The position numbers were made by a program, and so were the translations under genes. DNA of 64,000 nt from positions 531,157-595,156 of the forward strand of contig BCKL01000013.1 in the NCBI GenBank assembly GCA_001600635.1, in the 5' to 3' direction. Shown here in pieces: positions 38,175 to 64,000 of the stretch; the first letter of the stretch is position 1, and each line of letters begins with the position of its first letter. The notes beneath the pieces were generated by a model. The model had not been told where the DNA came from. It ran no database searches and worked only from the letters and a program-made list of their open reading frames with translations. The stretch is from Leucosporidium creatinivorum (Eukaryota > Basidiomycota > Microbotryomycetes > Leucosporidiales > Leucosporidiaceae).

Positions 38175-38512
38175 ATAAATAGACTTTGTTCTCGCTTGAA
38201 GCATCTGCAAGACGCTCTCTGCTCACACATCACTTGCTCGCGAGCTGTCCGCGCCGGAATGGCAAAGAAAGTCGGGAGATTGATTTTTCACCACTGAAAC
38301 AAGAATGAGGCGGAGAACTAAACTAGAGGAAGAGAGAAGGAGCGCGAGGGCCTCGTGTTTCGACTTGGGTGCGAAGCGCGAGGGAGGTATGTAAAGACGG
38401 GAGTAGCGAGGGATGAGAAGGGAATACACAAGGAGGGCAAGGCGAGTGAGGATGCGAGTGGATTGGTCGATAAGAGCCATGAGATGGCGTCCGGGGGAAG
38501 GTGCAAAGTCGT
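38175..38512. terminator. Shared 3' region of convergent genes
   Basis: About 340 nt between the stops of the PMP3-domain gene (+) and the PAK kinase gene (-). It should contain both 3' UTRs and polyadenylation signals. No ORF is supported. Confidence 0.4.
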
Positions 38513-42391
<3,879 letters not shown>

Positions 42392-43806
42392 GGTCAGCTC
42401 TGTAGTCTTCTAGTCGGGCTTGGTGGCAGTAGAAGCCGCTCGCTCGTGCTCCGACTGAGCGCCCTCAGCTGGCCAGTGACGACCGCTGTACTGCTCCCCT
42501 CTGAGCCACGCCCGTCGAGCTACAGGGTACCGCTACAAGCTCCTGCTGCTCTTCAGCTCCTTCTGTACGTCGTCCGTCGTTCTCATCTCCCTTCGAGCAA
42601 CGACGAGCCGCGCCCTCGCAAACACGAGACGCCTCCTCCGCTGCTGGGGCGGGCTAGCTTCACTGCTACTCACCGGTAAAGTTGTCCTGGTGATGCCTGA
42701 TGATAGGTGGAGGGTTCTTGGGTGGTGGTGTAGGCGCCATAGCTGTAGCTCTTTAGCTCTCGTGGCAGCTGGGAGGAGAGCGAGGCGAGCGAGCTGAGAG
42801 AGACGAGGGCGATGAGACGGACAGAGGTCGCTCCTGTTGTAGTGGAAGAGACGAGGTGCTTGCTCTGACACGTTGAGCTGGAGCTGTAGGTCGATAGACG
42901 AGAGAGAGCTGTCTGCTGACCAGCAGTCGCGAGAGCAAACGTCGAAGGAGGAGGAGGAGGAGAGAGGGGGAAGGAGGCGTGCCTCGAAATGGTGGAGTCC
43001 TGAGGATTACAACTCGCCCTAATCGCGAGTCTAATCCGCAATTCGCCACTTTCTATTCCCCATTTCTCTCCTTGCCTTCCCTTTCAAGTCGCTTCACCTT
43101 CGGACCAGCCCCCTCGCCTCTCGCTTCGCTCTCACGCTCCGCTGTACATCCACAGCCATTAGCTGGACACGATCCCCAGCAGTAACATTAGTGCCGTCAG
43201 CCAGGAAATTGAGCGCGCGCCGAGGTGGCACTCTACCGCAATGTAGAACCTCCGAGTTCGGTCGCCGTTCCTGCCGTCGCAACCGCCGGGCTTTGTTCTC
43301 GGCGAAGGGTGAGGATATGAGAGGGTGGAAGCGTGCTTGGGGCAGTGCCGACCATCGGTGGACGAGATGAGTTCGCATCTGGCTGCGAGCGACGTTTCGG
43401 GAGAGGGAAGCAGCATCGCCGAAAGCGCCGAACTTGCTCGTGCTGTCCAGCAGATGTTGATCTCGGCAATACAGCCACTATAGAATTTACGCTACTCTAG
43501 GATAGCCTCAGCTCGAGTCTTGAAGCCGTATCGGTACACAAGCGCTTTCGTGAGCTGCTCGGCGTTGCTCGGCGCTGCTTCAACACTCGCCTCGCTTTGC
43601 TCGAGGACGTTTCACACCTTCTGCGCAGGCCATCAAAACGTGCTGTGACGTAACTACCCAACACTCGCTCTCGTCGGACACGACCACAAGCGTGACCCGT
43701 GGAGCTCGACCCTCAAAGTTCGCTTCGCTGCTCTTCTCTCGTGCGGCAATCCAACAGATGAGCAAAGCACTCCTCGTCATTCCAGCTGCAATCAACCTGC
43801 TCACTC
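42392..43806. other. 1.4-kb region without a supported gene
   Basis: This region lies between the PAK start and the left BTB gene's stop. It probably includes the PAK promoter and leader. Several ORFs of 60-120 codons exist in different frames, including an ATG ORF on the minus strand at 43,378-43,094. None shows a motif, splice-supported extension or homology to another part of the window. Confidence 0.4.
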
Positions 43807-48911: not shown

Positions 48912-50374
48912 ATGCCTACTGCTGCTGAGCGCCCTAGCAACCCCCTGCAGGTGAGCAGCTCTCGCTTCGTCCTCTATCGCTCGCGCGCTGATCAGCGCTG
49001 CTCGCAGCCAATCGAGTCGTCCGAAGCTGTCGAAGAAGCTACAGCGTCCCTTTCCCTCGGCGCTGCTCTCTCGCCTGTAGTCGAGCACAAGGTGCGCCTC
49101 GATGGCCGAGCTCCGTCTCTCGAGCGAGCGACAGCTTACCAGCCTCGCTCTCACAGGATTACCTCTCGACCGCTCTCCCTGACGTGCTCGAATACATCTT
49201 CGAGCTCCTCCGTCTCGACCAGCAGACCAAGACGACCAAAGACCCCATCTGCAAAGCTCTCCTCCCCTACCAACGCGCCAATCTCTACCGAGGAGTCGAG
49301 CTCGGCGAGACGTCTTTCTCGCTCTTCGCTCGCGCTTTAAGGACCAATGAGGGCCTCGGAAGAATTGTACAGGAGCTTGCGCTCCCGTCGCATGTCAAAA
49401 GGGGTGTATCGACCGAGGAGATCGCCCAGCTCCTTCGCTCGCTTACCCATCTCAGCAAGCTTAGAGCTCCCCACTGGGTCGTGTTGATCGCGGACATTGA
49501 CGTCGAGCAGGTCCTTCCTCGTCTCGCTGGGTTGGAGAGCATCTACCTCCACGTCGACTACAAGCTGCTCCCTTGCGATCCGCTAGGCCAGCTCGCCCTC
49601 CTCCCCGCCCTCAAATCCCTCTACATCATCTTCCTCGACGACCATCTCTCCTCGGACATCACAAGAGCACCTGGTTTCACCCTGAGCCCTCTCACGAACG
49701 TTCAGAACCTACTTGCAGGTTCTCATCTCGGGCGCGCCGAGGTCGCCGAATTCGTCTCCCGCCTCACCAGCCTCAAAAGCCTCTTCCTCTGCGCCAACTT
49801 GGCCAGCCCCAACTTGAAGCATCTCTTGCAGGCGACAACTACCAAGCTCGAGGCGCTCACCATCCGCTTCGACTTCGACGGCGCCGATCAAGTCGACGCT
49901 CCCGACCCCGTCACTTTCCTCCTCACCGCTTCCCTCGGCGACGAGATCGGCCGCTTCACCCACCTTCGCACTCTTACTATCATGACCCCTTTCCTCTCCC
50001 CCTCCTTCTACTCGGCCATTTGTCACCCTCTTCCCATCGAGCAGCTCACTTTCGCCGAGCAATCGCTTCCTATCGTCGAGCTCCTCCTCCCCGTCATCAG
50101 TGGACCCAACAGCCTTCGCTCGCTCCAAAAGGTGGCACTCTACATTGATACGATCCGCGCGAGGCAAGGCAGGTCAATCAGGCCGAGCGACGTCGAAGCC
50201 CTCGACCACTGGATGGCGGAATCGTCGGCGAGAAGCAACGCCGGGGGCGAGGCAGGAAGCTCGAGCGACGACGAGCCGCCCCCCTGCCCCGTAGAGGGAT
50301 GGCTTCTACCTCGCTGGATGCTTGCCTACACCCTTGCGGGAACTCAGCAGCTCATCCGCAGCGTGGAGCCTTAG
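48912..50374 (+). CDS. F-box/leucine-rich-repeat-like protein
   Basis: Exon 1 (48,912-48,950, MPTAAERPSNPLQ) joins exon 2 (49,158-50,374) through a 207-nt intron. The first part, DYLSTALPDVLEYIFELLRL, is F-box-like (LPxxVLxxIFxxL), followed by YQRANLYRGVELGETSFSLF. The rest has irregular leucine-rich repeats, for example LRSLTHLSKLRAPHWV, LPRLAGLESIYLHVDYKLL, LPALKSLYIIFLDDHL and LTSLKSLFLCANLASPNLKH. A Ser/Asp-rich loop (GEAGSSSDDEPPPC) precedes the last helix. Such genes are expanded in basidiomycetes as probable SCF ubiquitin-ligase receptors. It is related in type, not in sequence, to the F-box genes in the inverted arms. Function is unknown. Confidence 0.75.
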
Positions 50375-50748: not shown

Positions 50749-51102
50749 ATCCACCGCCCTCGGCGCTGCCCTTCTCGCCGGTTCAGCTCTCAAGCTCTTT
50801 GACTGGGATCTCACCGACCCCGACTCGCTCGATTCGGTCAACGAGTTTGGTGTCAAGACTTTTATGCCCACGATCAGCAAGGAGGAGAGGGAGTGGAAGT
50901 GAGTGTTTTCGGGAATCGAGCCGCTCGGCTCGACGAGGGCGACAGCTGATCCCTTCTCGCTCGTCTCTCAGGTTCGCCGGATGGAACCGCGCTGTCAACA
51001 GGTCTATGGCTTGGAAGAGTGAGTCTCGAGCTCTCCCCCGCTCCTCCCCTACGGCGCCGAGCTAACTCGGCGCTCTCCTTAGCCAACTCGGGCCACGGTT
51101 AA
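50749..51102 (+). pseudogene. 3'-terminal exons of a glycerol kinase (FGGY family), truncated
   Basis: Three exons with good splice sites read STALGAALLAGSALKLFDWD, SVNEFGVKTFMPTISKEERE, WKFAGWNRAVNRSMAWKTNS and end GHG before TAA. This is the C-terminal end of eukaryotic glycerol kinase (Gut1-type): the ALGAALLAG strand followed by the FxPxIS-EERE-W-GWNRAVxRSMxW tail. All upstream catalytic exons are missing; the sequence 5' of 50,749 is unrelated (an MFS exon on the other strand). It is therefore a displaced gene tail and cannot encode an active kinase. Confidence 0.8.
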
Positions 51103-51348: not shown

Positions 51349-54300
51349 CTACTCTGCAGTCCCACCCTCTACTCTCCAAAAAGCATGCTCCTTCACTCGC
51401 GAATAGGCGGCGACGAGAGCAACCTCGTTGATGTTGGAGGCTGCTCCTTCATCTCGAGGCTGAACTCCCCAACACGTCGTACACTGCATGACGTCGTGGA
51501 TCCGATCTCCGGTCCGCACGTTGATGGCCATCTCACATCTGTTCCGAGGCCGCAGTGTCAGCTTTCTCTTCGCCAAGCAGACGAGACGAGCGGGCTCAGA
51601 ACGAAGCACTCACACACTGCGACGGTTCTCGGTTACACAGCTCTTGTTGATACAGCTCTTCGTCGTCAGTCCTTCGGGCACGACCTCCATCATTGCCGGC
51701 TGCTGGAAGCGGATCTTGTCGCCCGCGCTACGGCGCGAGAGCTCCTGCAGGATGGTGTTGCCGTGGTAGACGCCTGATCCGCTCTTCTTTCCTGCGAAGC
51801 TAGTAGCGGCGTCGCCGATGGCCATGATGATGGGCCTCGGCGTTGTCGAGAGGATGTGCGAGAGACCGATCTCGTCGTCGTAGGCGCGCTGGTGGAAGTC
51901 CTCCTCCTTCCTCCCTTGCTCGGCGTTTCGAAGATTCCTCTCGCCCTCCATCCCATCCTCACCTGCCTCCCTCCCCTCCCCCTCCCTCCAAACACCTGGC
52001 CCAAACAACGCTCGAATCTCGTCGACCGCCTTCCTCTTCATCCTCCGCTCTTCTCGCTGCGCCTCGAACGCCCTCTCCGTCCAGGGCCTCGACATCTTAA
52101 CGGCAGAAATGACGGTCTTGCCCGCTCTGATCGACTCCATTGTTTCGGTCGAGCTCGAGAAGAGGTTGAGCTCGTGCGAGTTGGCCTGGGCGCGACGGCG
52201 CGACAGCTGGTTGAAGGGAGCGGCGGCGATCGAGGCGGTGAGGAGGATGGGCTCGTTGTTGTAGTCGAATCCCTCACCGGAGAAGGCGAGGAGAGTCCGA
52301 CGTCCAGGGTCGATTCCGACTCGAATGAAGCGCTTGGACATGACTTCGAGAATCTCCTCAGGGGTGGTCGAGCGCGAGAGCGTCTTCTTGACCGCCTCGA
52401 AGATCCGCTCGGTGAAGCCTTGGTCGCTTGGGTCGCGCATCTTGGTGAGAGTGATACGCTGCGCCGTCTGAGGCAAGCCGCCGCCCGTCGTCTTCCACAG
52501 CCTGCGCTCCTCCGAACGACTGGCGACCACTCGAATGGGCTGCTTTGTCGTCGAGAGCGTCGAAGGGATATTGGGATTGGGATGGAAGGGGAGGAGGGTG
52601 GTTCCATCGATGATGGATCCATGGCGGGGGTAGCGACGAGCGGCCCTCTCCTTGTCGTTGCCGAACGCCGACAGTCGGGCGAGCGCCTCCTGGCGACGAG
52701 TCGGGTGACGCTGATGTCGAGGAAGAGAGCCGATCTTGTCCTCCTTGAAGGTGTAGGTCGTGAAGGAGGATGGTACTCGATGCTGGTGGACGCGAGGCGT
52801 GCCGAAGGTCAACGGCCGTTGAGTGGCGGTCTTCGAGGCGCCGAACTTGTGCTTGGTCGTGTTGTCGTACGAGAGCCATGGGATGTTCATCGCTGGGATC
52901 TCCTTATCCCCCTTGACGAGCGCCTGCATGAGCGCATCCGAGTCGGTGAACGCCTTTATCGAGTCCTGGGAGACGCCGAAGGCCTTCTCGGCCTTGTCGC
53001 CGAGGATGACGATGTGGGGAGGGAAAGTCGCAAAGTTGATTTGACTGGCGTTGAAGTGGAAGGGACCTCGAGGAAGATGGCCGGGAGGGAGCTTGAGGCG
53101 GAAGAGGAAGGCCACCAGGGCGAGCAGTCCTCCCTCGAGCGCTCGACGACCAGCGCGCTCCTTCCCGCCGAAGAACGTGGCCCGTACGCTAGCCACGAAC
53201 AGCTCCGTCCTCGCTGCAAAGGGTCCATCCTCGACGAAGCTGAGAGTCGCAGTCGCGTCAGCCCAGAACGCTCGTAGGTCTGCCTCGCGAGACCTGTCGC
53301 CCTGCATGTGCTTCCAGGCCTCCGAACCGAGGAGAGGGATTGCTCCCGCGAGGAGGAGGATGTCGTCGCCCCTGCGACCGAGGGCCTCCGAGCCGAGACT
53401 AAGGGCGAGGTCGGAAGGGCGGCGGTTGCGAAGGGCGGGGAGGTAGGAGAAGTTGAAGACGTCGGCGAACGCTTGCATGACGCTGCTCGTGCAGAGTGGG
53501 AGGTAGTTGAGGCTAACGTTGTCCATATAGGTCATTTTCCTTCGAATCGTCTGTGTGGGCCATCCAAAAGTCAGCTTCACGTTCGGCGAGACACACGCGG
53601 TGCACTCACCGGCGCAACTCCTCCTCCGTCAGGGTTGATCTCGCGCTTGATCCAGTCAAGGAACCCCATGCACCGCAGGGGCGCCTTGGCGAGGACCTCC
53701 TCGAGGCTCTGGCCTTCGTATTGTCCTCGATAGCGTACTCGACGGTTACGTTCGGTGATGATCCTGGAAACGACTGCGAGGACTCGATCGAAGAGCCAAG
53801 CTCGGTCCTCCTCCTCCTCGAAGACCTCCTCCACGGCGTCGAGCAGCTTGCAAACGTCCCTCGACGGCGTCGCGAGGAAGGTCGGCTCCATGAGCTCCTC
53901 GAGGTCGTCGTAGCCGAGAGCGTCCCAAATACGAGGGTCGATATCGCGATCATCGAGGCGGGGGTTCTTCGGGAAGCGGTTCTCGAGGGCGAAGGCGTGG
54001 ATCGCGTCGCTGAGGAGCGCCTTGCTCTCCTTGCGCTCGAGGGCTTCCACTCGAGCCTCCGTGAAGGCGGCGGCGAAGGACGGCGAGTCGGGAGATGGGT
54101 CGTTGGCGGCGGCGACACTGGTGGTAAAGTCGAAGGAGCACAACTTGATGAGGATCGTGTTGAAGTCGACGAGGGAGCGACGAATGGCGAGGCCAATGGG
54201 GTCGAAGGCGTTGTACTTGAGCATGGAAGAGAGCCCGTATACCCATGCCGGAGCCTTTGGTTGAGGCCCGACGTTGGCGCTCTTCGGCAGTTGATAGAAC

Positions 54301-55515
54301 GGGTCCTTGATGGCCTCGGAGAGCGCCTTGATGAGAAGATGGTCCACCTGATTGAGGATCGGTCAGCTTGCCGTTTGTTGTACTTGTCATCAAGGTTCCA
54401 CTCGCCCCGGAAACTCCCTTTAGCCGGTTGGCCTGCACTACGAGTGCGAGTCGATCAGGCTGCTCCTCCTGCTCCTCCTGCAATCCTCCGAACTCGTCTC
54501 GGAACTCGCTCGCCGTAGCCTCGGTCCACCCCCCTCTCGGCTCGTTCCTCCCGACCACCTCCGGCAGTATGCGTCCAACTGCATCCTTCCACTTCAGTCC
54601 GCTGATCTGCTCCCCGGGTCCCTCCTCCATCTCTCGCAAGCCCCGCCATCCCTTCGCCGCTTCCTTCACCTTCTCCCACCTTCCCAGCTCGAGCAGATGG
54701 GCTATGGCAGCCAAGACCTGCCCGACCTTGTCGTGTTGCTCGAGGAGCATGCTCGAGTAGCTCCTACCCCCGGTCGCGCCGATGAGCTTGATGTATTGCT
54801 GGAAGACCTTCGAGATGACGGTGGTGGAGTGAGAGATGAGGAAGTTGAGAGCCTCGAGATGGGTTGGAAGAGGGGAGAGAGAGGTGCCGGGACCCGGGAG
54901 GATGCGAAAGCCGCGCTGGTCATGCCGCTTGACGAAGAGGCGCTGACGAGCCGGGTCCTGGAGCATCTTCCCACGAGTCGCAACGAGCTGGAGAGGGTCG
55001 GTGTGGTTGATGGAGGAGCGGAGTGGCTGGGGATGGGTCCGTCGTGGGTGGACCGAGGCGCCGGGGTGTTCGTCGGCGGGTCGACCCTTGCCCGCCGCCT
55101 TCTTCCCCTTCTCGTCGTCCTCGAGCGAGTCGTCCGAATCCTCGTCGTCGTCATCACCCGCCGCTTTCCACCCTCTGATATGCCCGACCCTCCCCCTCTT
55201 TTTCTTCTTGCGCTCCTTCCTCTCTGCTGCCATGCTCGTCTCGGTCTCGAGCGTCATGACCTTGCTCCGGGCACCATGACGGTCGAGCCGGTGCTCCTGA
55301 GGTCGCAGCGGACCGTCTCGCGCAAGCTTCTTGACACTCGTCATTCGGACTTGGCGTTGAGAGGTCTTGGTCCGCTGGTTGAGTACGCGCTGCCGTGCGG
55401 ATGAAGAGAGGAGGAACGACGTCGCTGATTTCCCGTCGCAGGTCGGCCGGAAACTCGGTGCGAGAGGCGGGTCGGTTGCAGCTGTACATATACGGTTCAA
55501 CTCGGGTGAGTTCAT
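51349..55515 (-). CDS. Fanzor: eukaryotic TnpB-like RuvC nuclease (putative RNA-guided)
   Basis: Four exons: 55,515 to about 54,442; 54,347-53,610; 53,550-51,614; 51,538-51,349 (about 1,300 residues). The C-terminal third carries the nuclease: RuvC-I FIRVGIDPGRRTLLAFSGEG (Asp codon 52,311-52,309); a Trp-containing helix region; PIIMAIGDAATSFAGKKSGS (Asp 51,813-51,811); VVPEGLTTKSCINKSC (Glu 51,675-51,673); a second Cys pair (51,483-51,481 and 51,474-51,472); and RuvC-III QPRDEGAASNINEVALVAAY (Asp 51,453-51,451). This order, with a Glu directly before the Cys finger, is that of Fanzor rather than bacterial TnpB. The N-terminus has a basic NLS-like run (RKERKKKKRGR) and an acidic stretch. ATG 55,515 is the first in frame; ATG 55,341 is an alternative. 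Unlike its neighbours it has very few introns. Guide RNA and activity are inferred from the family. Confidence 0.88.
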
Positions 55516-56257
55516 TACTAGGATCCTCAATCTTCGCAAGCTGACCTGTTACTGCCCAACAGCGTACAACGAGGCCTGTCCCTTCGGCCCGTGTGGTCGC
55601 CGGCTTCGCTTCGAGCTGGAAAGAGTGNNTTGGCCATTTGCTACTTTCAAGCTGGACCTGAAGCTGACTGAGAGGTATTACAGGTCCCTAATAAAAAAAA
55701 AGAAAAACCTTGGCGACCCGATTACCCCCATCGACTTAAACAGTCGGCATGGTCCATTTCCATGCCACCACGAGCAGCGCGACGAACTTGTTGGCGCTAG
55801 ACCTGGCAGCCTCAGTTGATAGCAGCAGCCGTGATCTGATGAAATCACCTCATCCGCACGGCCTCCGGCTCGAGGGCACTCTGGTTCGCGCGGTAGAGGT
55901 GGAGGAAACGTTCAAGAAGCAGTTGGCGGCCGCGAGAAGGGGTGAGGTCTTGGAAATGGAGGAAATGAAGGAGAGGAGGGCTGGAGCGGCAGAGGGTGGG
56001 ACTTATGGAGTAGGGATGAGGGGCGAGTTGATGCTTGAGGGTTGTTGAGAGGGAGCTGAGTGTGCAGAGGATACCGATGCTGAGGTGTGGAATATCGAGA
56101 GCAGTGCTCGCAACTTGGCTGAACGATACAGTGAGAGAGCTGAGCGCCAGCACGAGAGGTAGTGAGTTGCTAAGCGAGCGCAGAGGCCCTCAGCCTCTAG
56201 CAATCATCCCCTCTGCCAAATCGAGCTCTGGGAGGTGCAGCTGCAGCTGGATTTTTG
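55516..56257. other. Fanzor upstream region and junction to right arm; N gap and A-rich run
   Basis: 742 nt. It contains two N bases (55,628-55,629), an A-rich run at about 55,692-55,707 that stands out in GC-rich surroundings, and a plus-strand ATG ORF of 99 codons (55,749-56,048, MVHFHATTSSATNLLALDLA). That ORF has a Glu/Lys/Arg-rich helical middle but no family match. It could be another displaced gene start or chance. Confidence 0.35.
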
Positions 56258-56865: not shown

Positions 56866-58097
56866 TCAGCATCTGCGAGGAAGTGGAAGAGATCAGCAGT
56901 AGCTCAAGGGTCTACAGTAGACCAACTCACCGCTCATCGAGATAGCGCTCCCATCCCTCGAACCCACCTTCCTCATCCCCCTCGGCACCGCCACGCAAGA
57001 TGCCGATGACCAGCTGGGCACATCTTTTCGTGACCGCAGTGAGTTTGGTACGCCCTTCCGCCTCACGGCTGTGCTCGCAAAGCGGAAACTTCCGAGGTAA
57101 GATCAGGCGCTTGAGGTGCTGCAGCGAGATCGGCGGGTCCTCTAGCAGCGAACGAAGCTCGACGAGTTGGGTACCGTAGCGTTCAAGTTCACACACGGCG
57201 GTGGATGGCGGAGCGATCAACCGGAGCTGCTGCAGAGGCGAGGGGAGGCGTTCCAATGCGGTGCGGAAGGTTGGATCCTGCAAAGCGTCTTCGTAGGAGC
57301 GCGAGAGGGAGAGCGATTCGAGGCGATCAAGATTCGACCAGACGCCGTCAAGATAAGGGGAGAAGATTCGGTGGGGGTCGTCGAAGCGGAGCGCCTTGAG
57401 CTGGTCCATCGAAGCGAGAGCTCGTGCGAACGCCGAGAAGGTTTGTGGGTCGCCTCTGACATCCCAGTTGTTGACGGCAAAGCTCAAGGTGGTGAGGATA
57501 GGTAGGGATGAAGTGCTGAGGAGATCTTCCCACTTCCCCCCGCGAGGGTCTGGCTGGACATTGATGAGGGAGAGACGGGTGAGATTAGGAAGGACGAAAG
57601 CTGAGGCGAGCTCGGCGCAGTAAAGAGAAAAGTCTCGGAGGTGGAGCTGGGTGAGGTCTACAGCTTGAGAGTCAGTAAATGAAGCTGTGGATGGTGCGAG
57701 AAGACGTACAAGGTGCAGCAGCGAGCGTCTCCAACGAAACCGTCATGATCCGCAAGCGAAGGTCCGTCAAGCTCGTACACTGCTGCAGCATCTCCCGCAA
57801 GCCATCCATCTCAACGCTGACCTCTTCTTCGACAACGCGCAGCGACCTGATATGTCCAACGAGTCGACTGCCCGCACCCTCGGTCGAAGCTCTGAACCTC
57901 GCCACGCCCTCGTCTCTCTCGAGCAAGACATGTCGGTAGAGCTCGAGCTGCGCCCACGGTGTCCATGCTTTGTGAAGGAGCGCGTAGGGGAGTGTGATGG
58001 CGTAGCGGCCGGAGACAGTTTCGAAGCCTGAGATGGTCGAGGGGAGCGAGACGACGATGATGCGGTGGACGAGCTCGGCGGGAAGCGAAGGGGACAT
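56866..58097 (-). CDS. F-box-like protein (right copy, intact)
   Basis: Start ATG 58,097: MSPSLPAELVHRIIVVSLPS, an F-box-like N-terminus, then WTPWAQLELYRHVLLERDEG. Exon 1 ends at a GTACGT donor near 57,711; exon 2 begins DLTQLHLRDFSLYCAELASA near 57,660. It continues with leucine-rich segments (LKALRFDDPHRIFSPYLDGV, LDRLESLSLSRSYEDALQDP, LQQLRLIAPPSTAVCELERY). A last short exon adds the stop (TGA 56,866). The family is probably SCF-type substrate receptors. From about 57,920 to 56,890 it is identical or nearly so to the left copy, while the first 60 codons differ, which points to recent gene conversion or a very recent partial duplication. Confidence 0.75.
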
Positions 58098-61923: not shown

Positions 61924-64000
61924 TCAAGGCTGACGGCACACCCTACTTCCCGCCGTATCCGAGCACCACCCCAGCTCGAGCTTCCCCTGCACGGGCAGCT
62001 TGTACACTCTCCGCCTCACAGGATCACGCTCAAAGAAGCTCGACTGAGGCGCCGGCCTCACTCCCTCAAAGATGCCCATCAACCTCTGCACACACTCGTG
62101 GCGCTTCGCCCTCCAGACCGAGCTGCTGATCCCTTGACTCAGACCACTGAAGCCCTTGGAGTGAATCTCGGTGAGGTTGGACTTGAAGAGGAGGGGAGCG
62201 CCGAGGGAGGGCGCAGCGTCGGGGAGGAGTGGGTCGCTGATGGGGAGGGTGGCGGCGAGGAAGTTCATGGCGATGTCCTCGCAGGGCGTGTTGGTGGAGA
62301 GGTCGACGAGGGCGCTGTTCTCGAAGTAGGCGCGCATGTAGTTGACCGAGATCATGAAGAGCTTGCCGATCTGTAGGTCGATTGGAGCGGGTCAGTCCAG
62401 GCAGAGAGCGATACGGAGGACGTAAGACTGCTCACCACGATGTCAAAGTAGCCATCGGGCAGCTTGAAACGGTACTGGCAGCCCTCGGGGATCTTGCGCT
62501 CGAGCTCGGCGGTGCTGACGATGGCGGGAAGTCCTCCCTCGGCGCCGAGCTCCTTGGTGAGGTCGTGCGTAGTAGCAAGACGCTCCTCATCTCNGTCGCA
62601 GCGGATGACACGAGGCTCGAAGCCGATGATTTGGTCTCGGCGAGAGCGCCAAAGCTGAAACGCCGCTTCGAGGTCTTCCAGCGGAGCGAGGACCTGTGTG
62701 AGGGTGTTGCATGGTCAGCAGAAGCTCCTAAGAGTAGCTCAAGAGTCGACTCACGTCATCATCGTAGTGCAGGACGGCCTCAGTTTTGACCTCGGTCCAG
62801 ATGAGGAAGCTGCCGGTGAGCGAGCGAGGTCAGCTTCGGAAATGCAGCCCCAGGGACGCTGCAGCTCACCGGTTGTGGACCAGATTCGTCATTTGCTGGA
62901 TGCACCGAAGCCAGGGGAACTCGGCGAACTCGTCGGGGCAGGCGTGCTGAGAACCATAAGTCAGCTCGGCGCTGTCGTCTCGGCGGTAAAGCTGACCTCT
63001 TGGTTGTTCCAGGCGATGACAATCTCGTAGAGGAACGGCGAGTGTTGAAGATGCTTGATGATCTTGAGTAGGGTGTCGACGCGAGCGAAAGCAACAACGA
63101 CGACGGTGAACTGTGCCGACCGAGCAGGGTCAGCGAGTCCGGCCGAGTCGGCGATCAACCAAACGACTCACCTTCTCGAGGGATGGAGTGCCGGTGGGTT
63201 CGGTCATGACCATCTCGGAGCAAAACGAGGGGGTGGTGAAGTCGCTGGGAAGTGACTCGCGGAAGTCTCGAAAGTACCTCCTCCTCCGAAGGGGAAGCGA
63301 AATGTCAGCTCAAGCGCAACCTGATACGCTACGAGAGAGCTCACCAGATCTCAGAGTAGTACCCCTCTCCATCGCACAGCCAAGGCTTCATCATGCCGCT
63401 GCAAAGTGGGGTTGATCAGCGCTCGCTCGCGTCGAGCTGCTCGGCGCCGACTCACTTCCAGTGAAGGATCGCAGCCGACTCGACCTCTTCCCTCGAGCGA
63501 GTAGTAGGGAGTCCGAGGCCGTACTCGGTGTCCTCGCGAATGCCAGCGAGGTCCATGAGCTGGAGAGAAAGACGGGTGAGCGAGCTCGGCGAAGGGAGCG
63601 GCAATCAGAGCTCACATTCCACTCGTCGTCGAGGACACGATAGTTGCGGCTGTGAGACCAATGTCAGCCGCTAGTCTTGACACTTCTGAGCGAGGACCGC
63701 TCACTAGAACTGCAAGAAGAGATGAGTCGGTCAGCTCGAGTTCCGAGCTCGAGACTCGAACGCCGAGCAGCGACTCACGACCAGGTTGAACGGAGGCTGA
63801 GAGCCGAGAGTGTAAAGCTTATCCTCAGTGTTCTTGCGGGTCCACTCGAAGAGCTCGTCGGTGTACGAAGGCGAGGCAGTGCGCCAGGCTTGCAGGTCGT
63901 AGACGAGCACGCCTGGAGGGTGGCAAGTCAGCTCGGCTTCAGTAGGACTAGAGCGGCGTCGCCCACCATTGTTGAGGGTACAGGTGTCGTGATCAAACTT
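61924..64000 (-). CDS. Glycosyltransferase with GT8-like and GT64 (exostosin-like) domains, partial
   Basis: The 5' part is off the right edge. Visible first is a GT8-like end: TLNNGVLVYDLQAWRTASPS, FNLV joined through a 5-nt exon (63,709-63,705) to RNYRVLDDEWN, then AAILHWNGMMKPWLCDG (the HWNGxxKPW motif). After RYFRDFRESLPSDFTTPSFC comes a GT64 domain: FTVVVVAFARVDTLLKIIKH, YEIVIAWNNQE, WLRCIQQMTNLVHNR, TEAVLHYDDDVLAPLEDLEA (metal-binding DDD), RRDQIIGFEPRVIR, GYFDIVIGKLFMISVNYMRA and TPCEDIAMNFLAATLP. The end is at TGA 61,924. GT64 enzymes transfer HexNAc in the secretory pathway; the acceptor here is unknown. An N lies at 62,594. Both domains read on one strand with consistent splice sites, so a fusion is likely, although a missed gene border cannot be fully excluded. 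Confidence 0.8.

Follow-up and report, generated by a model that had tools for sequence, protein, structure and literature searches.

A predicted intron-bearing gene for a divergent Fanzor-lineage nuclease in Leucosporidium creatinivorum

The question raised by the minus strand between positions 51349 and 55515 of a 64,000-nucleotide (nt) stretch of Leucosporidium creatinivorum DNA (contig BCKL01000013.1; this whole stretch is the window) is whether it carries an intact gene for a Fanzor, the eukaryotic relative of TnpB and Cas12 that uses a guide RNA, as proposed in an initial annotation. The explanation favored here, and in our judgment probably the correct one, is that this strand carries an intact nuclear gene encoding a divergent RuvC endonuclease of the Fanzor lineage, within the TnpB/Cas12 superfamily. 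The gene structure in the sequence, the constellation of motifs, and the placement of active-site residues in family columns are seen directly.

The best model reads the minus strand from 55515 to 51349 as an apparently intact, intron-containing gene of fungal appearance with four exons and ∼1,324 codons. The span coincides with that of the initial annotation, whose four-exon structure and large product of ∼1,300 residues are also retained in this sequence-based model. Its parts are as follows.

51349–55515, minus strand: predicted Fanzor-type coding span, ∼1,324 amino acids in the best model; the joined exons are open with one terminal stop
54406–55515, minus strand: exon 1 in the best model; the putative start, the earliest ATG of the open reading frame (ORF), is at 55515
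54348–54405, minus strand: intron 1 in the best model, 58 nt, GC-AG, GCGAGT..AAGCTGAC..TCAG
53610–54347, minus strand: exon 2 of the joined-exon model
53551–53609, minus strand: intron 2, 59 nt, GTGAGT..AAGCTGAC..CAG
51614–53550, minus strand: exon 3, with RuvC-I, a helical RuvC insertion (from the structural model), the RuvC-II Glu, and the first finger Cys pair
51539–51613, minus strand: intron 3, 75 nt, GTGAGT..AAGCTGAC..CAG, within the zinc finger
51349–51538, minus strand: exon 4, with the CTTC knuckle, RuvC-III, and the stop codon

Introns 2 and 3 have consensus splice signals, and intron 2 combines donor, branch, and acceptor with an exact frame junction. In intron 1 the branch and the acceptor are good, with 3′ end AAGCTGACCGATCCTCAATCAG at 54348, and the donor is either a weak GT or a GC: GCGAGT at 54405 competes with poor GT donors at 54414, 54438, and 54441, and the corresponding alternative 3′ ends of exon 1 (54415, 54439, and 54442) also keep the frame. 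The GC donor, giving a putative intron of 58 nt, a maintained frame, and 1,324 residues, is preferred because GTGAGT is the commonest donor hexamer in the window (32 of 538 intron-like matches, counting GT donors alone) and GCGAGT is one base away from it. Residue numbers refer to this 1,324-residue model; in an earlier model of 1,312 residues, the numbers past exon 1 are smaller by 12. The GC content by codon position over the joined exons is 0.62/0.47/0.77 and therefore the frame looks coding; exon 4 alone has 0.60 at position three. The window is intron-bearing DNA of ∼60% GC, and an antisense stop-to-stop frame of 499 codons is also present; in DNA this rich in GC, long open frames carry less weight.

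Exons 3 and 4 encode the 708 C-terminal residues, including the nuclease core, and exons 1 and 2 the 616 N-terminal residues, for which no Pfam match was above the cut-off (best E 0.12). Because 708 residues is near the normal size of a Fanzor1, it is the N-terminal part that is odd, and the locus might instead comprise two neighboring genes, an upstream gene made of exons 1 and 2 and a 703-residue Fanzor starting from the ATG at 53535 in exon 3. That arrangement, a variant of the favored explanation and compatible with it, gains from the size of the exon 3–4 product, close to the 600–700 residues usual for Fanzor1, and from the stop that the exon 2 frame would reach at 53577 if intron 2 were retained. 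It is nevertheless improbable in our view, given the consensus donor, branch, and acceptor of intron 2, the exact joining of the frames across it, and an intergenic gap that would be just ∼40 bases.

Whether the open frame encodes a Fanzor-lineage protein was judged from its motifs. Those named in the initial annotation (GIDPG, GDAATSF, VVPEGLTTKSC, CTTC, and RDEGAASNI) fall in one frame once the 75-nt intron at 51613–51539 is removed, and Asp, Glu, and Asp are found where it placed them, at 52311, 51675, and 51453, respectively. The four Cys it had noted are present as well, with the qualification that the first pair is C-x4-C and that a fifth Cys, at 51537, lies between the two finger pairs. 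Family rows for comparison were gathered by scanning viral contigs with the pattern E..T.KTC..CG, which gave 52 stretches; an open frame that qualified was present at 37 of the 53 loci scanned, L001 among them, and the rows were taken, without formal classification, as displaced-Glu Fanzor2/TnpB-type. Alignment A1 contains 12 such rows, and A2 is A1 minus one row, plus four TnpB rows and the predicted protein. The catalytic features, with their A2 columns, are these.

52309–52311, minus strand: RuvC-I Asp, D1030 of IDPG; invariant A2 column
51673–51675, minus strand: RuvC-II Glu, E1242, in the displaced (Ealt) position six residues before C1249; invariant A2 column
51472–51654, minus strand: zinc finger C1249-x4-C1254 .. 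C1281-x2-C1284, split by intron 3; sub-threshold match to PF07282
51451–51453, minus strand: RuvC-III Asp, D1291 of RDEGAASNI; R and D columns invariant in A2

In A2, aligned by MAFFT without guidance, D.G, E, T.K.C, the third finger Cys, R, and D all stand in columns invariant across the predicted protein and the 15 viral-contig rows. The motif given as defining TnpB and Fanzor, D-x(125,275)-[TS][TS]xx-C4 zinc finger-x(5,50)-RD (PMC3627910), occurs in the predicted protein when the first finger pair is allowed to be C-x(2,6)-C, as in the pattern used here, and in 0 of 20,000 residue shuffles of the 1,312-residue model. Two fingerprints are described as separating Fanzors from almost all TnpBs, namely DPG at RuvC-I and a RuvC-II Glu that precedes the finger by about six residues (PMC10711439), and both are found here, as D1030-P-G and as the six residues from E1242 to C1249. 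The C-terminal spacing C..C-x5-RD..AA.NI of the TnpB/Cas12f TNB domain is present too, and a degenerate DNA pattern for C..CWG...RD.GA has a single match in the window and none in 100 dinucleotide shuffles. The superfamily identity proposed in the initial annotation is supported, with both fingerprints present.

Similarity over the C-terminus extends to profiles and to a predicted fold. With a wide profile of 32 rows (36 frames after removal of L019, with identical frames collapsed) the C-terminus scores 12.2 bits; the highest score among 2,000 shuffles is 5.2, and among 2,466 ORF decoys, drawn from the window and from loci L123–L212, it is 6.5. Comparison by hhalign with the wide set yields E 3.2e-4 and a probability of 39% over the region from RuvC-II to RuvC-III, and with a narrow set of 18 rows having DPG, near-duplicates kept, E 0.0045 and a probability of 8%; in both cases 0 of 200 shuffles are as good. 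The identity of the predicted protein to the rows is 12–21%. When PDB is searched with profiles, A1 reaches the mimivirus Fanzor2 and, up to E 1, no chain under the name Fanzor1, whereas A2 reaches GtFz1 at E 0.0031; this match cannot be credited to the predicted protein alone because A2 also adds four TnpB rows and drops one row.

AlphaFold2 run on the A2 alignment gives a model with a predicted local distance difference test (pLDDT) score of 57.6 and a predicted template modeling score of 0.52, in which 123 of 378 residues are at 70 or more. Its top four PDB matches are SpuFz1 (E 6.7e-5), AsCas12f, SpuFz1 again, and the mimivirus Fanzor2; ranks 5–36 are named as TnpB or Cas proteins, in a few cases through a nickname and in one, rank 31 ('ReChb - crRNA'), judged by its title alone, and unrelated titles begin at rank 37. 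The best match is thus a Fanzor1 although the supplied rows were taken as Fanzor2/TnpB-type. In a library of viral structures the first and third matches are 'transposases', 642 and 632 residues long, and the fold matches in giant viruses reach 840 residues. Template modeling scores of the matches are low, ∼0.3. The alignment-guided fold is consistent with the favored explanation, as a model rather than as independent proof.

Weighing against this explanation is a set of results from the same searches, from the architecture of the protein, and from its surroundings. No curated library gives a significant match: Pfam has none for the whole protein or for its 314-residue C-terminus at E up to 10, and with the last 136 residues or the 77-residue finger region as query its sole match is PF07282, the TnpB/Cas12f TNB zinc domain (E 0.54 and 0.46, respectively); the finger region scores 11.1 bits, far below the cut-off of 26.3. 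PHROGs and NCBIfam match in 0 families, phmmer against PDB returns either no match or a single unrelated chain at E 1, and an exon 3 query against the viral contigs gives five pattern matches and no relative. With the narrow profile the C-terminus, at 8.1 bits, clears shuffles (7.1) and decoys (6.8) by a narrow margin and the whole protein, at 5.4 bits, falls under three shuffles and two decoys; hhalign against the 12 rows of A1 gives E 0.012 and a probability of 3.7%. When this stretch is modeled from its single sequence, pLDDT is 35 and nothing relevant is matched; the fold thus depends on the supplied rows. On the two computational checks suggested with the initial annotation, home-made profiles rank the C-terminus above shuffles and decoys and curated libraries give no significant match; the alignment-guided model best matches SpuFz1 and the single-sequence model fails. 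As to architecture, the first finger pair has the spacing C-x4-C in place of C-x2-C, the predicted protein is, at ∼1,324 residues, about twice the usual size of Fanzor1 (described as 600–700, up to ∼800 residues), and the TDG motif that the Fanzor1 WED domain carries (PMC10711439) is absent from the whole predicted protein. In the surroundings, inverted repeats in the flanks of 2.5 and 2.7 kb do not exceed chance (the best scores 15.5, and 6 of 60 controls are as good), and the 3′ region is not unusually structured, with folding z-scores from −1.69 to 0.68 in six 200-nt windows downstream of the stop.

These results might be taken to mean that an unrelated fungal protein matches the Fanzor motif by chance, as the want of significant matches in curated libraries, the bare separation of the C-terminus by the narrow profile, and the failed single-sequence fold would allow. 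We consider this very improbable. The simultaneous fit of several motif spacings, together with the absence of the motif from all 20,000 shuffles, weakens the idea of a chance match, and the wide profile score is clear of both shuffles and real ORFs.

If the protein belongs to the Fanzor lineage, the next question is to which class. With Fanzor1 proteins such as SpuFz1, GtFz1, and PpFz1 it shares the DPG of RuvC-I, the displaced Glu before the finger, and the RD of RuvC-III, and differs from them in its C-x4-C first knuckle. With Fanzor2 and IS607 TnpB having the displaced Glu (mimivirus L79, PDB 9b0l; the A1 rows) it has in common DPG, the displaced Glu, and the invariant columns of A2, and it differs in its low identity to the rows, 12–21%, and in its length, ∼1,324 against about 500 residues; Fanzor2 proteins are described as ∼500 residues long and mostly IS607-encoded (PMC10711439). 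TnpB and Cas12f (PF07282, its sole, sub-threshold Pfam match) share with it the C..C-x5-RD..AA.NI spacing, whereas the displaced Glu, DPG in place of D-hydrophobic-G, and eukaryotic introns of the predicted gene set it apart. Because the TDG motif is missing and its length is about twice that of Fanzor1, the predicted protein is not filed as Fanzor1; on its sequence features, which include those defining the whole Fanzor lineage, it is filed as a divergent Fanzor-lineage protein.

A further question is whether the gene is, or was, part of a mobile element with its own guide RNA. A 401-nt stretch around and beyond the stop folds somewhat better than its shuffles, with a z-score of −2.09 and 3 of 100 shuffles as good. 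For comparison with the six 200-nt windows past the stop, 80 windows were drawn at random from this DNA; their z-scores go down to −5.2 (median 0.21), with at least six below −2.1. Against these the downstream folding is unremarkable, and nothing in it stands out as a guide-RNA candidate. Scans of the window with Rfam and for tRNA genes are empty. The functional RNA-guided nuclease of the initial annotation would be an extension by analogy with the family; neither guide RNA nor transposon ends were found here. The two flanking ORFs give no Pfam match above the cut-off, and hence none to a serine recombinase TnpA of the IS607 type, for which no directed search was made.

With this bearing on the locus, two further histories come into consideration. 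It could be a domesticated Fanzor-derived host gene, in which the RuvC/TNB core was kept and serves the fungus, for example as a nuclease or as a DNA-binding regulator with a new N-terminal half, with no tie to a mobile element or a guide RNA of its own. The lack of inverted repeats around the gene, spliceosomal introns, the long N-terminal addition, the open coding frame, and the single finger-pattern match in the window all suit such a gene; the retention of the whole catalytic triad does not, and Fanzor1 genes with five or ten exons exist inside transposons (CRe-1 to -3, PMC3627910). We regard domestication as unlikely, although likelier than the other alternatives. The second history, a solitary ageing transposon remnant whose coding region is by chance still open, would fit the absence of terminal inverted repeats, the weak or GC donor of intron 1, and the strong divergence from profiles. 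Against it stand ∼4 kb of coding frame free of internal stops, codon positions of coding type in exons 1–3, and the full set of catalytic residues, and it seems to us improbable.

Under the favored explanation, a divergent Fanzor-lineage endonuclease, the mechanism would be that of characterized relatives. SpuFz1 and GtFz1 bind a structured RNA whose guide end pairs with DNA that is cut at a D-E-D site (PMC10432273, PMC11423790), the third catalytic place in GtFz1 being Asn (PMC10432273/PMC11423790). By analogy, the predicted protein would associate with a structured RNA produced at the same locus and use the 3′ part of that RNA as a guide to open double-stranded DNA of matching sequence next to a short motif; the cut would be made by the D-E-D RuvC site, which adjoins the zinc-binding TNB domain, and the role of the protein might be to help a mobile element persist.

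A bolder proposal, which we think improbable, is a fungal class of giant intron-bearing Fanzors at fixed chromosomal loci, without transposon ends, in which the 616-residue N-terminal half gives the RuvC core a new task, perhaps host-directed RNA-guided cutting or silencing with guides that may come from elsewhere in the genome. Published Fanzors, as described outside supplementary lists, have ∼500–800 residues and are mostly on mobile elements. A Fanzor-lineage protein of ∼1,300 residues missed by Pfam and NCBIfam and encoded on a chromosome of fungal appearance would, if real, mean that the eukaryotic family is wider than published descriptions, and would provide a test case for whether eukaryotes have adopted RNA-guided nucleases for functions of their own.

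That these searches found no fungal relative means little because the collections searched are of viruses and prokaryotes. Full-text literature gave no match for Fanzor in Basidiomycota, basidiomycetes, or Rhodotorula, supplementary tables being outside the scope of that search, and for TnpB in Basidiomycota transposable elements the text retrieved held a mere mention in a reference title. Since Fanzor1 is described as widespread in fungi (Saito et al.) and supplementary tables were out of scope, such proteins may have been listed before. Among viral contigs, a scan with W-NRDVNAA for Fanzor1 gave one ORF, of a different kind. The pattern W.RD.NA..N[IM] gave 20 stretches, 10 of them with the motif in an open frame of at least 60 codons, and none of these 10 has both DPG and a displaced Glu in the printed context. 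The pattern C..CWG...RD.GA found one stretch, L213, whose 40-codon frame is no relative. Viral contigs L103, L110, and L116 have a common TnpB/Cas12-like frame with DPG and C..C .. WDRDVNAARNI, and without the displaced Glu.

One other feature of the predicted protein was recorded.

55195–55212, minus strand: RKKKKR basic run at residue 102, a possible nuclear localization signal by pattern alone

Beyond the coding span, a perfect 8-bp hairpin, GCGCCGAG-TTAG-CTCGGCGC, was noticed by eye at 51054–51073 on the minus strand, ∼280 bases past the stop; it may mark the end of an element, belong to an RNA, or be fortuitous. Undetermined bases (NN) at 55628–55629 lie 113 bases upstream of the proposed start, where the region may hold an assembly join; a third N in the window is at 62594. 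Flanking frames at 48992–50374 (plus strand) and 56927–57742 (minus strand) are leucine-rich and by eye F-box/LRR-like, with no Pfam match above the cut-off (best E 0.11) and no significant mutual similarity. Farther away, open frames at 38223–42409 on the minus strand resemble, by eye, a protein kinase C-terminus plus a proline/serine-rich half.

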